64,000 nucleotides of DNA from Amycolatopsis thermophila (GTDB lineage Bacteria > Actinomycetota > Actinomycetes > Mycobacteriales > Pseudonocardiaceae): contig NZ_JAUSUT010000001.1 in NCBI RefSeq assembly GCF_030814215.1, positions 4,774,001-4,838,000 of the forward strand. Direction: 5' to 3'. The notes beneath the pieces are model-generated. The model had not been told where the DNA came from, made no database searches, and worked only from the letters and a program-made list of their open reading frames with translations. Shown here piece after piece: positions 18,734-42,905 of the stretch (position 1 is the stretch's first letter; every line of letters begins with the position of its first letter). Both the position numbers and the translations under genes were made by a program.

Positions 18734-19540
18734 GTGGACAGCGACGTCCGGACGGTGACCGGCAAGGTGCTCGCGCTGCTGGGCGCGTTCACGCCGTCCT
18801 GCCCCGAGCTGACGCTGTCCGAGCTGTCCCGGCGCGCGGGCCTGTCCCTGGCGACGACGCACCGCCGGGTCGCCGAGCTGGTCGCGTGGGGCGCGCTCGA
18901 ACGCGGGGAGGACGGCCGGTACCGCGTCGGGCTGCGGTTGTGGGAGGTCGCGTCGCTCGCGCCGCGCGGGCTGGGCCTGCGTGAGGCGGCGATGCCGTTC
19001 CTGGAGGACCTCTACGAGGTCACCCACGAGAACGTGCAACTGGCCGTGCGCGAGGGGTTCGAGCTGGTGTTCGTGGAACGGATCTCCGGCCGCCGGGCCG
19101 TTCCGGTGTGGACGCGGGTGGGCGGCCGGTTCGCCTTGCACGCCACCGGCGTCGGCCTCGCTCTGCTCGCCCACGCGCCCGCCGAGGTGCAGGAGGAGGT
19201 GCTGGCCGCGCCGTTGCGCGCCTACACGGACAAGACGGTGACGAGCCCGGCGCGGCTGCGCGAAATGCTGGACGCGGTGCGCCGCAACGGTTACGCCGTC
19301 AGCGACGGGCAGGTGACGACCGACGCCGTCTCGGTGGCCGCACCGGTGCGGACCGACGGCGCGGTGATCGCCGCCGTGTCGCTGGTCGTCCACGCCGACG
19401 GCGCCCAGCCCGCCGCCCTCGCGCCGCTCGTGCAGGCCGCGGCGCGGGGGATCGCGCGGGCCTGCGGCTCGCCGAGCGGGGCGCGGGTCTTCCCCCGCGC
19501 ACCGGTCGTCTCGGCGGCCACCGACAGATCCCGGCGCTAA
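18734..19540 (+). CDS. IclR family transcriptional regulator
   Basis: 268 residues, GTG start with an AGGA element about 9 nt upstream. The N-terminal winged helix (LTLSELSRRAGLSLATTHRRV) is followed by an IclR effector-binding domain (residues 85-250). It lies 18 bp after the reductase gene in the same direction and probably controls the oxygenase operon; IclR members often govern aromatic catabolism. A palindrome at 16462-16471 is a candidate site. Confidence 0.9.
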   Translation: MDSDVRTVTGKVLALLGAFTPSCPELTLSELSRRAGLSLATTHRRVAELVAWGALERGEDGRYRVGLRLWEVASLAPRGLGLREAAMPFLEDLYEVTHENVQLAVREGFELVFVERISGRRAVPVWTRVGGRFALHATGVGLALLAHAPAEVQEEVLAAPLRAYTDKTVTSPARLREMLDAVRRNGYAVSDGQVTTDAVSVAAPVRTDGAVIAAVSLVVHADGAQPAALAPLVQAAARGIARACGSPSGARVFPRAPVVSAATDRSRR

Positions 19541-38092: not shown

Positions 38093-38586
38093 TGACGCCG
38101 CCACTCCGCCAAGGAGACCTCGCACTGCTCGACACGGACGTCGCGCGGCGGCTGCTCGCTTCGACCGAGCTGGCCCGCCTCGCCTACGTGGCCACCGACG
38201 GCACGCCCCGCGTGCTGCCGATGCTGTTCCACTGGAACGGACACGAAGTGGTCATGTCGACCTTCGCCGGCACCGCCAAGATCGCCGCGCTGCGCGCCCG
38301 CCCGGCTGTCGCGATCACGATCGACCGCGCCGGCCCGCCGCCGGAAGTGCTGCTGGTGCGCGGGAACGCGGTGGTGACCGACGTCGACGGCGTGGTGCCC
38401 GAGTACGCCGCCGCGCAGCACCGCTACTACGGCGAGCAGGGCGACGCCGGGGTCGCGGAACTGGACCGGCCCGGCCTGAAGATGGCGCGCATCGCGGTGC
38501 GGCCGGAGTGGGCCGGCACCTTCGATTTCCAGGAGCGGTTCCCGGGCGGCACCACGCCCGAGGAGTTCGCGCGGCGGGGGCGGTGA
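38092..38586 (+). CDS. pyridoxamine-phosphate-oxidase (PPOX)-fold flavin/F420 protein
   Basis: 164 residues. The split-barrel fold shows LARLAYVATDGTPRVLPMLF and VMSTFAGTAKIAALR, typical of PPOX-class proteins that bind FMN or F420. It starts inside the palindrome that also supplies its ribosome site, so operator binding should block both transcription and access. The alpha/beta hydrolase gene starts 1 bp after its stop. Probably an oxidative or electrophile-defence reductase (inference from the HxlR setting). Confidence 0.85.
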   Translation: MTPPLRQGDLALLDTDVARRLLASTELARLAYVATDGTPRVLPMLFHWNGHEVVMSTFAGTAKIAALRARPAVAITIDRAGPPPEVLLVRGNAVVTDVDGVVPEYAAAQHRYYGEQGDAGVAELDRPGLKMARIAVRPEWAGTFDFQERFPGGTTPEEFARRGR

Positions 38587-38587
38587 C

Positions 38588-39235
38588 ATGGCCACGTTCG
38601 TGCTGATCCCCGGCGCCGGCGGTCAGGCGTCCTACTGGCACCGGCTGGTGCCCGAGCTGACCGCGCGCGGCCACGAAGCGATCGCCGTCGGCCTGCCCGC
38701 CGGGGACGATTCGGCGGGCCTGCCCGAGTACGCCGACGTGGTGGCCGACTCGATCGGCGGCCGCGGCGACGTGGTCCTCGTCGCCCAGTCGATGGGCGGC
38801 TTCACCGCCCCACTCGTCTGCGAGCGCGTCCCCGTGCGGCTCCTGGTGCTGCTCAACGCCATGGTCCCGGTTCCCGGCGAGTCCGGCGGGCAGTGGTGGG
38901 CCACCACCGGCTACCGGGAGGCGCACCCGGAGGAGATGGACGTCGAACGCGACTTCTTCCACGACCTCCCGCCCGGCGTGCGGGCCGAGTTGCTGCGCGA
39001 GGGCGAGCCGCAGCAGTCGGGCACTCCCTTCGAGCAGCCGTGGCCGCTGGAGAAGTGGCCGGAGGTGCCCACGAGGTTCGTCCAGGGCCGCGACGACCGG
39101 TTCTTCCCGCTGGAGTTCCAGCGGCGGGTCGTGCGGGAGCGGCTGGGGCTGGAGCTGGACGAGGTGCCCGGTGGCCACCTGGCCGCGCTGAGCCGCCCGC
39201 GGGAGCTGGCCGACCTCCTGGCGTCCTGGTGTTGA
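38588..39235 (+). CDS. alpha/beta hydrolase
   Basis: 215 residues. VLIPGAGGQASYWHRLVPEL is the oxyanion-region motif, Ser68 in VAQSMGGF is the nucleophile, FVQGRDDRFFP supplies an Asp, and GGHLAAL the His. A salicylate-methylesterase-like small hydrolase; substrate unknown. It is co-transcribed with the PPOX gene (1-bp gap). Its TGA lies within the promoter of the next gene. Confidence 0.88.
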   Translation: MATFVLIPGAGGQASYWHRLVPELTARGHEAIAVGLPAGDDSAGLPEYADVVADSIGGRGDVVLVAQSMGGFTAPLVCERVPVRLLVLLNAMVPVPGESGGQWWATTGYREAHPEEMDVERDFFHDLPPGVRAELLREGEPQQSGTPFEQPWPLEKWPEVPTRFVQGRDDRFFPLEFQRRVVRERLGLELDEVPGGHLAALSRPRELADLLASWC

Positions 39236-39260
39236 CATCGCTTCGAACGCGTGTTCGACT
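39232..39260 (+). promoter_or_regulatory. SOS (LexA) box within a leaderless promoter
   Basis: TCGAAC-GCGT-GTTCGA at 39243-39258 is an exact match to the actinobacterial/mycobacterial LexA box (TCGAAC-N4-GTTCGA). It lies between a TTGACA -35 (39232-39237) and a weak TCGACT -10 (39255-39260, 17-bp spacing), which would place the start of transcription at about 39267, the GTG start codon of the radical SAM gene. LexA would block RNA polymerase here until DNA damage. Confidence 0.85.
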
Positions 39261-39266
39261 GAGGTG

Positions 39267-41030
39267 GTGAGGTGGGAGAACCAACGCGCCGGCCGTGAAC
39301 CGCAGCTGCCCCTGCCCGGGCTGGTCCGGACGGTCACGTCACCGGAGTTCCGGGGCGTGACGTTCCACGAGGTCCACGCGCGTTCCGTGCTGAACAAGGT
39401 CCCGGGGCGGTCGATGGTCCCGTTCGACTGGACCGTCAACCCCTACCGCGGCTGCAGCCACGCCTGCACGTACTGCCTGGCCGGCGACACGCCGATCCTG
39501 ATGGCCGACGGGCGCACCCGGCCGCTGGCCGACCTGCGCGTCGGCGACGAGATCCAGGGCACCGAGGTCCGCGACGGCCACCGCCGCTACGTCACCACGA
39601 CGGTGCTCGCGCACTGGTCCACCGTGAAGCCCGCGCACCGGATCACCCTGCGGGACGGCACGAGCCTCGTCGCCAGCGGCGATCACCGGTTCCTCACCGC
39701 CGAGGGCTGGAAACACGTCACCGGACCGGACCGCCCGCACCTCCGGCCCGGCGACACGCTGGTCGGCACCGGCCGCTACGCCACGGCCCCGGTCGCCTCA
39801 CCGGCCTACCGGGAGGGTTACCTCGCGGGCCGGATCCGCGGCGAAACCCGGGGCGAGGACCCGCAGTGGCAGCAGGGTTTCCTCGCCGGTGTCTTCGACG
39901 AGTCGGGCACGTTCGCCCACGGCGACCTGCGGATCGCCGAGCCGGACCCGGAGGTCGCCGAGGCCGTGGCCCTCGCGCTGAAGAGCCTCGGGTTCGAGGT
40001 CGAGCACGCCGAGGACATCAGGCTGACCGGGGGGTTCCCGGCCGGCCTGCGGTTCCTGCACACCGTCGACCCCGCCCTGACCCGCAAGCGCGCCATCGCG
40101 GGCGAGCCGGTCGAGCCGCGCCCGGAGCTGGCCGTCGTCGCGGTCGAGGACCTCGGGCGGGAGCAGACCCTGTTCGACGTCACCACCGGCACCGGTGACT
40201 TCCTGGCCGACGGGGTGGTCAGCCACAACTGCTTCGCGCGCAAAACGCACACCTACCTCGACTTCGACGCGGGGCGCGACTTCGACACCCAGGTGGTCGT
40301 CAAGGTCAACGCGCCCGAGGTGCTGGCCGCCCAACTGCGCAAGCCGGGCTGGAAGCGTGAGCACGTCGCCATGGGCACCAACACCGACCCCTACCAGCGG
40401 GCCGAGGGCCGCTACCGCCTGATGCCCGGCATCATCCGCGCGCTGGCCGGCTCCGGCACGCCGTTCTCGATCCTCACCAAGGGCACCGTCCTGACCCGTG
40501 ACCTGCCGCTGCTGACCTCCGCCGCCGAGGACGTCGGCGTCGGCATGGCCGTGTCGATCGCCCTGCTCGACCGGGAGCTGCAGCGCAGTCTCGAACCCGG
40601 CACCCCGAGCCCCCGCGCGCGGCTGGACCTGGTCCGCCGCATCACCGACGCCGGCCTGCCCTGCCACGTGATGGTCGCCCCGGTGCTGCCCGGCCTGACC
40701 GACACCGAGGAGGCGCTGGACCCGCTGTTCGCCGAGATCGCCGCCGCCGGGGCCACCCGGGCCACCGTGCTCGCGCTGCACCTGCGGCCCGGCGCCCGTG
40801 AGTGGTTCGGCCGCTGGCTCGGCGCGCACCGGCCGGACCTGGCCGAGCGCTACCGCGAGATCTACGGCCGCGGCAGCTACGCCATGCCCGCCTACCGCCG
40901 GGCCCTGTCCGCGCGGGTCGCGCCCCTGCTGCGGCGGCACGGCCTGAACCGGCGGGAGGATTCGCACCGCCTGCCCGCGCCCCGGGAACCGGAGCGCCCG
41001 GCACCGGGCGAGCAGCTGAGCCTGCTGTAG
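39267..41030 (+). CDS. Rv2578c-family radical SAM protein interrupted by an intein
   Basis: 587-residue precursor. Start GTG 39267: it gives VRWENQ, like the MRW start of Rv2578c, and fits the leaderless promoter; GTG 39264 is possible. The radical SAM cluster motif CSHACTYC is split: after Tyr the 252-residue intein starts with its own Cys1, and the extein resumes with the +1 Cys in CFARKTH, so only splicing rebuilds the CxxxCxxC site. Downstream extein motifs (MGTNTDPYQRAEG, FSILTKGT, HVMVAPVLPGLTD) match SPL/Rv2578c-type radical SAM proteins. The Rv2578c gene is in the LexA regulon of M. tuberculosis, from memory, and an SOS box is seen here. Function unknown; DNA-repair-linked. Confidence 0.93.
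   Translation: MRWENQRAGREPQLPLPGLVRTVTSPEFRGVTFHEVHARSVLNKVPGRSMVPFDWTVNPYRGCSHACTYCLAGDTPILMADGRTRPLADLRVGDEIQGTEVRDGHRRYVTTTVLAHWSTVKPAHRITLRDGTSLVASGDHRFLTAEGWKHVTGPDRPHLRPGDTLVGTGRYATAPVASPAYREGYLAGRIRGETRGEDPQWQQGFLAGVFDESGTFAHGDLRIAEPDPEVAEAVALALKSLGFEVEHAEDIRLTGGFPAGLRFLHTVDPALTRKRAIAGEPVEPRPELAVVAVEDLGREQTLFDVTTGTGDFLADGVVSHNCFARKTHTYLDFDAGRDFDTQVVVKVNAPEVLAAQLRKPGWKREHVAMGTNTDPYQRAEGRYRLMPGIIRALAGSGTPFSILTKGTVLTRDLPLLTSAAEDVGVGMAVSIALLDRELQRSLEPGTPSPRARLDLVRRITDAGLPCHVMVAPVLPGLTDTEEALDPLFAEIAAAGATRATVLALHLRPGAREWFGRWLGAHRPDLAERYREIYGRGSYAMPAYRRALSARVAPLLRRHGLNRREDSHRLPAPREPERPAPGEQLSLL
39474..40229 (+). other. intein (252 residues) with degenerate LAGLIDADG endonuclease region
   Basis: Intein residue 1 is the Cys of CLAGDTPILMADGRTRPL (block A); block B is GTSLVASGDHRFLTAEGW; block F is LFDVTTGTGDFLADGVV; the last residues are His-Asn, followed by the +1 Cys of the extein. 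The usual nucleophiles for class 1 splicing (Cys1, block B His, C-terminal His-Asn, Cys+1) are present. The middle holds FLAGVFDESGTF and GYLAGRIRGE, two degraded LAGLIDADG-like motifs, so the endonuclease is probably inactive or shrunken. It sits exactly in the FeS motif of the host protein. Confidence 0.92.
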
Positions 41031-41135
41031 CAAAACCTGGTGGACTCGCCCCGCGGTGCGTTCGTTAGCCTCATACCGGCAGGAAAACGCCTGCTGACGC
41101 CACGAGCAGAACGCCTCGCAAGGAGAACAACCCCA

Positions 41136-42905
41136 GTGCTTCGCACCCACGACGCCGGCACCCTGCGTGCCGAGCACGCCGGCCAGATCGTCACGCTCAC
41201 CGGGTGGGTCGCCCGGCGTCGCGATCACGGCGGGGTGATCTTCATCGACCTGCGGGACGCGAGCGGCGTCGCCCAGGTGGTGTTCCGCGAGGGCGAGATG
41301 GCCGAGCGCGCCCACCAGCTGCGTTCCGAGTTCTGCGTCAAGGTCACCGGCGAGGTCTCCCGGCGTCCCGAGGGCAACGAGAACCCGGAGATCCCGACCG
41401 GCGCGATCGAGGTGCTGGCCACCGGCCTGGAGGTGCTGTCCGAGGCCGCCGTGCTGCCGTTCCCGATCGACGACCGCGTCGACGTCGGCGAGGAGGTGCG
41501 GCTCAAGTACCGCTACCTCGACCTGCGCCGCAGCGGCCCGGCCCGCGCGATCCGGCTGCGCAGCGAGGTCAGCCGCGCCGCCCGCGAAGTGCTGCACGGC
41601 CAGGGTTTCGTCGAGGTCGAGACCCCGACGATGACCCGCTCCACCCCGGAGGGCGCCCGCGACTTCCTGGTGCCGGCCCGGCTGCGCCCGGGCTCCTGGT
41701 ACGCGCTGCCGCAGTCGCCGCAGCTGTTCAAGCAGCTGCTCATGGTCGGCGGCCTGGAGCGGTACTACCAGATCGCGCGCTGCTACCGGGACGAGGACTT
41801 CCGCGCCGACCGGCAGCCGGAGTTCACCCAGCTCGACATCGAGATGAGCTTCGTCGACCAGGACGACGTGATCGCCGTCGGCGAGCAGGTCGTGTCGGCC
41901 CTGTGGAAGCTGATCGGCCACGACATCCCGCGCCCGATCACCCGCATGACCTACGCCGACGCGATGGCCAAGTACGGCACCGACAAGCCGGACCTGCGGT
42001 TCGGGCTCGAGCTGACCGACCTGACCGAGTACTTCGCCGACACCCCGTTCCGCGTCTTCCAGGCGCCCTACGTCGGTGCCGTCGTCATGCCCGGCGGTGG
42101 CGACCAGCCGCGCCGCCAGCTCGACGCGTGGCAGGAGTGGGCCAAGCAGCGCGGCGCCAAGGGCCTGGCCTACGTGCTCGTCGGCGAGGACGGCACGCTG
42201 TCCGGCCCGGTGGCCAAGAACATCTCCGAATCCGAGCGCGCGGGCCTGGCCGAGGCCGTCGGCGCCAAGCCCGGCGACTGCGTGTTCTTCGCCGCCAACA
42301 AGCCGAAGGAGGCCCGCGCCCTGCTCGGCGCGGCGCGCGTGGAGATCGGCCACCGGCTCGGCCTGATCGACGAGAGCGAGTGGTCGTTCGTGTGGGTCGT
42401 GGACGCGCCCCTGTTCGAGCCGGCCGACGAGACCGACGACGTCGCCGTGGGCTCGGGCAAGTGGACCGCGGTGCACCACGCCTTCACCTCGCCGACCCCG
42501 GAGTGGATCGACAAGTTCGAGACCGACCCGGGCAGCGCCCTGGCCTACGCCTACGACCTGGTCTGCAACGGCAACGAGATCGGCGGCGGCTCGATCCGTA
42601 TCCACCGCGCCGACGTGCAGAAGCGCGTGTTCGAGGTGATGGGCCTGTCGGAGGCCGAGGCGCAGGAGAAGTTCGGCTTCCTGCTCGACGCGTTCGCCTT
42701 CGGCGCCCCGCCGCACGGCGGCATCGCGTTCGGCTGGGACCGCATCGTGATGCTGCTGGCCGGGGCCGAGTCGCTGCGCGACGTCATCGCGTTCCCCAAG
42801 ACCGGCGGCGGGTACGACCCGCTGACCGGCGCGCCCGCCCCGATCACCGCGCAGCAGCGGCGGGAGGCTGGGGTTGACGCGAAGCCGCCCGCACCGAAGG
42901 GCTAG
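41136..42905 (+). CDS. aspS: aspartyl-tRNA synthetase
   Basis: 589 residues from the GTG at 41136; AAGGAG lies 11 nt upstream and the N-terminus [16 protein letters not shown] is the normal AspRS start. It has an N-terminal OB-fold anticodon-binding domain ([20 protein letters not shown]), class II motif 2 ([20 protein letters not shown]), a bacterial GAD insert (residues 290-410) and motif 3 ([13 protein letters not shown]). It charges tRNA-Asp in the cytosol. The DUF389 gene follows 3 bp later. Confidence 0.97.

Follow-up and report, generated by a model that had tools for sequence, protein, structure and literature searches.

How is a radical-SAM gene that is interrupted by an intein switched on, and does the intein take part in this control? 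The question is raised by a gene in a 64,000-nt stretch of the Amycolatopsis thermophila genome, here called the window. The gene (39267..41030, + strand) encodes an Rv2578c-family radical-SAM protein as a 587-aa precursor that contains the intein (NF038136, NF038135, PF04055), and its membership in the family is clear from bit scores of 847 for NF038136 (cut-off 700) and 517 for NF038135 (cut-off 430). A preceding reading made from the letters alone (the sequence-only reading) had proposed an exact SOS box within a leaderless promoter in front of this gene, and had seen in the intein a further layer of control. We assign a probability of about 0.85 to the reading that the gene has a LexA-repressed, leaderless SOS promoter, an estimate built on sequence comparison, and in the following we describe the box, its conservation in orthologues, the promoter geometry, the intein and the gene product, and weigh the alternatives.

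The SOS Box and Similar Boxes in the Genome

The predicted LexA operator is the palindrome TCGAACGCGTGTTCGA at 39243..39258 (no strand assigned), which agrees with the Actinomycetota-type SOS box TCGAAC-N4-GTTCGA at 12/12 positions with 0 mismatches, so that a box of the type expected for a LexA regulon of this phylum is present in the promoter. From base composition, 0.0010 exact boxes are expected in the window, which has 1, and 0.109 in the 7.315-Mb genome, which has 9, and the claim of an exact SOS box is thereby borne out. When up to two mismatches are allowed, the window contains one further match, at 19059, and the total of 2 is about that of shuffled sequences (mean 2.10). With at most one mismatch, the whole genome has 83 such places vs. 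14 for the reversed-pattern control.

Both lexA and recA are present in the genome, each preceded by this type of box: three 11/12 boxes lie about 190–285 nt upstream of the matched start of its own lexA (G000:C1:4090175), and one 11/12 box about 175 nt upstream of its own recA. The window's own 16-mer also precedes a two-gene run, which we take to be ImuA'/ImuB-like; the second of its proteins contains IMS, a Y-family polymerase domain. At L242 (G000:C1:320061-320669) the genome encodes another LexA-like protein, which has DNA-binding as well as S24 peptidase domains, and no box of at least 10/12 was found near its gene in the stretch fetched. Other boxes mark candidate SOS genes, namely a DUF4253 gene preceded by two exact boxes (L009, G000:C1:2904222 and 2904292) and a HEPN_SAV_6107 gene preceded by an exact box with an 11/12 neighbor (L010, G000:C1:4037417). 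At L007 (G000:C1:1893956) an exact box is positioned about 360 nt before a frame that resembles, by eye, a helix-turn-helix protein; the next gene, likewise named by eye, would encode an ImmA/IrrE-like peptidase. Three of the 10 proteins beside boxes in this genome had no Pfam match.

Conservation of the Box in Orthologues

The order sample comprised 200 genomes, 143 of which had a match to the family; the match was over the cut-off in 118 including the window's own genome, and the other 117 loci were fetched. Parsing succeeded for 117/117 loci of the order, 61/64 of the rest of the class and 25/25 of the set named genome_contigs. The codon before Arg/Lys-Trp was assigned as the start codon, and box distances are therefore measured to that codon. 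Two order rows (L055, L151) had no start codon before Arg/Lys-Trp and were left out, hence 115 of 117, together with four of the 64 class rows (L227, L233 and L235, unparsed, and L211, with no start codon at that place) and one of the 25 genome_contigs rows (L039).

A box of at least 10/12 is found within 150 nt upstream in 112 of the 115 order orthologues (at least 11/12 in 107, exact in 35), in 46/60 from the rest of the class and in 24/24 from genome_contigs, counts that are not independent events because of relatedness within genera and because two genes of the order sample recur in genome_contigs. Dinucleotide shuffles of the upstream regions reached 10/12 in 22/2300, 5/1200, and 3/480 cases for the order, class and genome_contigs, respectively, and stretches of equal length inside genes did so in 8/115, 1/60, and 0/24. 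Among the 112, the box of L116 at -116 is probably a chance match. The box starts 23–26 nt before the assigned start, which we call the fixed geometry, in 103/115 order and 40/60 class genes (143 in total), and at least one gene of each of the ten order families with genes over the cut-off has such a box. In genome_contigs, 21 boxes are located at -24 or -25 and three (L040, L041, L043) at -14, where they overlap the start codon. Orthologues without a 10/12 box number 3/115 in the order and 14/60 in the class, and 12 of the latter 14 belong to a single genus (g77) and carry GGGAAC-N4-GTTCTA 46–49 nt upstream. In diverged homologues below the family cut-off, whose start codon is not always fixed, the box is seen in 3/13, with two further loci of this kind (L239, L240) outside the 13 counted. 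L157 shows a variant, TCGAAC-N5-GTTCGA, in which the half-sites are five letters apart rather than four and which lies close to the usual position. The comparison supports a LexA-type operator upstream of the intein-containing gene, as the sequence-only reading had suggested.

Promoter Geometry and the Start Codon

The -35-like hexamer TTGACA (39232..39237, + strand) begins 11 nt upstream of the first letter of the SOS box, which leaves 5 nt between the two, and shares letters with the stop codon (39233-39235) that ends the alpha/beta-hydrolase gene upstream. A 17-nt spacer leads from the hexamer to the -10 register TCGACT (39255..39260, + strand), which matches TATAAT at 3/6 positions and overlaps the end of the box, and this is followed by GAGGTG and by the GTG at 39267, 6 nt after TCGACT and 8 nt after the box. 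The box had been placed between the -35 and -10 elements; it does come after the -35, but because its final TCGA forms the first four letters of the -10 register it does not lie strictly between the two. A consensus promoter scan of 38500-41200 found none. The arrangement is repeated in relatives: the best match to TTGACA in the 20 nt before the box is 5 or 6/6 in 93 of the 143 fixed-geometry orthologues, and the hexamer begins 11 or 12 nt before the box in 106 of the 110 that score at least 4/6. The T at 39260, which is the last letter of the -10 register and stands outside the palindrome, is T in 138/143 of them, and an A at position 2 of the -10 hexamer occurs in 0/143.

There are two in-frame GTGs in the window, at 39264 and 39267. 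The former was rejected as the start, since TGG stands at its place in L059 and L050, the closest congeners, and the distance to the box in relatives, where the start codon before the conserved Arg-Trp keeps the same spacing, favors 39267. The start codon at 39267, as the sequence-only reading had it, is in this way supported by the constant box distance and by the place before Arg-Trp. Another in-frame start codon no more than 9 nt upstream is common to 35/143 fixed-geometry genes, and the window is of that kind (GTG 39264).

The GTG at 39267..39269 (+ strand) is also the predicted transcription start of a leaderless mRNA. The gap from box to start is 7–10 nt in the 143 fixed-geometry genes, and these lack a Shine-Dalgarno sequence: one of at least 5/6 is present in 3/143 of them vs. 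23/27 of the genes with a distant box (Fisher p 2.6e-21, with relatedness ignored). This comparison covers 175 order and class rows and admits 9/12 boxes into the distant group, and five rows fall in neither group (one with a box at -27, and L081, L150, L157, and L229 with weak boxes). Box geometry and the absence of a Shine-Dalgarno sequence in orthologues together argue for the leaderless start at the GTG that had been claimed, and the comparison as a whole supports a leaderless SOS promoter with start codon 39267; the poor -10 register and the consensus scan without a hit speak against a good promoter. In genus g77 (L174-L199), the box GGGAAC-N4-GTTCTA at 46–49 nt upstream is accompanied in most genes by a strong Shine-Dalgarno sequence, and represents the promoter in a leadered form. 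The association of Shine-Dalgarno sequences with box distance allows leaderless and leadered forms of a single SOS promoter to be compared cleanly, and the near-constant distance from box to start provides start codons and likely transcription starts for this gene family from sequence alone.

The Intein

The intein is 252 aa long (39474..40229, + strand), beginning with Cys1 and ending in Ser-His-Asn before a Cys, and it is followed directly by the third cysteine of the CxxxCxxC Fe-S cluster motif. Its splice motifs are CLAGDT at the start, GDHRFL, which we take to hold the block-B His, and SHN at the end followed by C, and the residues expected of a splicing-competent intein are in place. The homing-endonuclease part is shortened. 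Because the stretch between two blocks, presumably LAGLIDADG-like, is largely missing, the homing part of this intein is probably dead. A profile of 13 Rv2578c-family members has a weak match to I-DmoI, a homing endonuclease (E about 0.003 to 0.007). The insertion place before the third cluster cysteine is the same in 73/73 intein genes with a readable junction (71 distinct sequences, the window included; L155, the junction of which was not read by the motif used, was left out). The alleles at this one site range from 143 to 358 aa with intermediates, and look like a series of homing-endonuclease erosion.

The Gene Product

A structure model of an intein-free orthologue was made from 13 sequences, with a mean pLDDT of 71. 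At this confidence, its best match among solved structures is spore photoproduct lyase (PDB 4fhg, 4fhc; TM about 0.5, 15–16% identity), and the next matches are other radical-SAM enzymes. A residue-level alignment of the family to spore photoproduct lyase by sequence was not obtained. The hydrogen-donor cysteine of the lyase would presumably have its counterpart after the cluster motif, and no conserved cysteine was found at the presumed place; in the interval 30–70 residues after the third cluster cysteine, cysteines occur only at offset 53, in 48/200 proteins, and the window's protein is not one of these. A paper on a Streptomyces phage site cautions, in its passages on the Rv2578c-type radical-SAM family, against the name SplB, and states that loss of the Streptomyces family member had no evident cost and that the link to DNA repair is speculative (PMC12924846). 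The Rv2578c-family protein would then be an SplB-like radical-SAM enzyme, and its regulation is what connects it with DNA repair. The near constancy of the box in the family (112/115 in the order) argues for a damage-related role of this enzyme without a known substrate.

Proposed Mechanism and Alternative Explanations

In the proposed mechanism, LexA bound at 39243-39258 would sit on the spacer and on the larger part of the -10 register, and would exclude RNA polymerase. DNA damage would lead to RecA-driven self-cleavage of LexA and free the promoter, transcription would begin at GTG 39267 or beside it, and ribosomes would translate the leaderless mRNA directly. The precursor would splice out the intein and thereby join the third cysteine to the Fe-S cluster motif, and only the spliced enzyme would bind the cluster. 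We infer LexA binding, induction, the transcription start, splicing and the SplB-like role in DNA repair from the features described above.

The poor -10 and the close upstream neighbor suggest a different course of events, in which the gene is read mainly from the promoter of the alpha/beta-hydrolase gene (38588..39235, + strand; PF12697), LexA acts as a roadblock or modulator, and a leadered mRNA is translated from 39264 or 39267. The stop codon of the hydrolase gene is 31 nt from the start of the radical-SAM gene. The end of the hydrolase gene falls within the -35 and the region 38500-41200 yielded no terminator-like site, therefore a leadered transcript that reads through into the radical-SAM gene is possible, and congener L059 shares the upstream sequence. 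However, the upstream sequence differs in L047 and L050, yet TTGACA, the box and the start keep their places, and a Shine-Dalgarno sequence of at least 5/6 is absent in 140/143 fixed-geometry orthologues. Taken together, we regard such read-through as an unlikely main source of the transcript.

Two further explanations concern the intein and the palindrome. The intein might form a two-step control together with the SOS box, a second signal such as cysteine oxidation gating splicing and activity; an insertion that precedes the third cluster cysteine in each of the 73 readable intein genes would suit such gating, although homing inteins usually insert into the most conserved motif. Stress-gated splicing has been described for the M. 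smegmatis DnaB intein (PMC6195587). Against a coupled control, a box of at least 10/12 in the order is alike in frequency with the intein (37/37) and without it (75/78; p 0.55). The class shows 15/16 and 31/44 (p 0.086), and the order and class pooled give p 0.024, but of the 16 intein-free genes that have no box, 12 fall in the one genus (g77) that has a different box. Within the window's genus, two of the four genes (window, L047, L050, L059) are free of the intein, and an exact box keeps its position in all four; the two intein-free congeners have 90% and 75% extein identity, and one at 91% has the 143-aa form. The box thus occurs as often without the intein as with it in the order, and either way in the window's genus, for which reason the intein was rejected as part of the SOS circuit, and the view of it as a second layer of SOS control was not supported. 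Judged from these sequences, it looks like a separate passenger rather than a part of the SOS switch, and we think a two-step control quite improbable. It would be more surprising still if the palindrome at 39243-39258 were a chance match or the site of another regulator. An ArsR motif is described as resembling the mycobacterial SOS box (PMC8151990), but only 0.001 such boxes are expected per window, the same motif stands near the genome's own lexA and recA, and each of the ten order families with genes over the cut-off retains the box at this position in one member or more. A chance origin was rejected on its rarity against base composition and its conservation in orthologues.

The leaderless SOS promoter, which we prefer, could be extended to a broader scenario: an order-wide promoter of this type, with operator, -10 and start within about 30 nt, combined in the intein lineages with splicing at the Fe-S cysteine as a redox check. 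This combination is speculative and, on present sequences, doubtful. If it were true, the redox check would mean that the damage-induced enzyme is active only when its cluster can be built.

Comparison with Known Systems

The window's gene belongs to the family that NCBIfam describes as intein-containing Rv2578c radical SAM (NF038136), its intein being 252 aa within a range of 143–358 aa at the site. Among the matches listed for leaderless LexA or SOS-box starts, the titles and opening abstracts do not describe the layout of the Rv2578c family; those for inteins, radical SAM and actinobacteria include none, by title, on the window's gene, and the passages found on Rv2578c do not treat SOS control. 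The 2002 list of M. tuberculosis LexA targets (Davis et al.) reportedly includes Rv2578c.

A close published parallel is the S. venezuelae radical-SAM gene vnz_31145, a possible orthologue, which is likened to thymine-crosslink repair enzymes, is a LexA target by ChIP and is induced 20-fold with mitomycin C, and which differs in having a box at -61 with a poorer match (PMC9380542). The exact pattern of its printed box was found before the Rv2578c-family start in 0/392 genomes of one genus, and the fetched orthologue upstream regions contained no match of at least 12/14. By analogy, and strengthened by the LexA and mitomycin data on vnz_31145, we infer that the window's gene may respond to DNA damage. 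A “DNA repair photolyase” is induced in a RecA-dependent manner in M. tuberculosis, in a passage that gives no gene number (PMC8151990), the core SOS regulon of Gram-positive bacteria includes a radical-SAM protein (PMC7739468), and SOS control of splB / COG1533 genes is reported for several groups (PMC3323433, PMC8565304). The splB / COG1533 and core Gram-positive cases share with the window an SplB-like radical-SAM gene under LexA, whereas they concern other lineages and partly other LexA motifs, and their relevant passages describe no leaderless layout. A leaderless actinobacterial SOS gene is represented by M. tuberculosis lexA, for which the passage in question gives a start codon at the transcription start and a leaderless mRNA (PMC2897130), although it is another gene. 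Both elements are known already, SOS control for SplB-like radical-SAM genes and the leaderless layout for another SOS gene, and the locus described here is a very well conserved further case.
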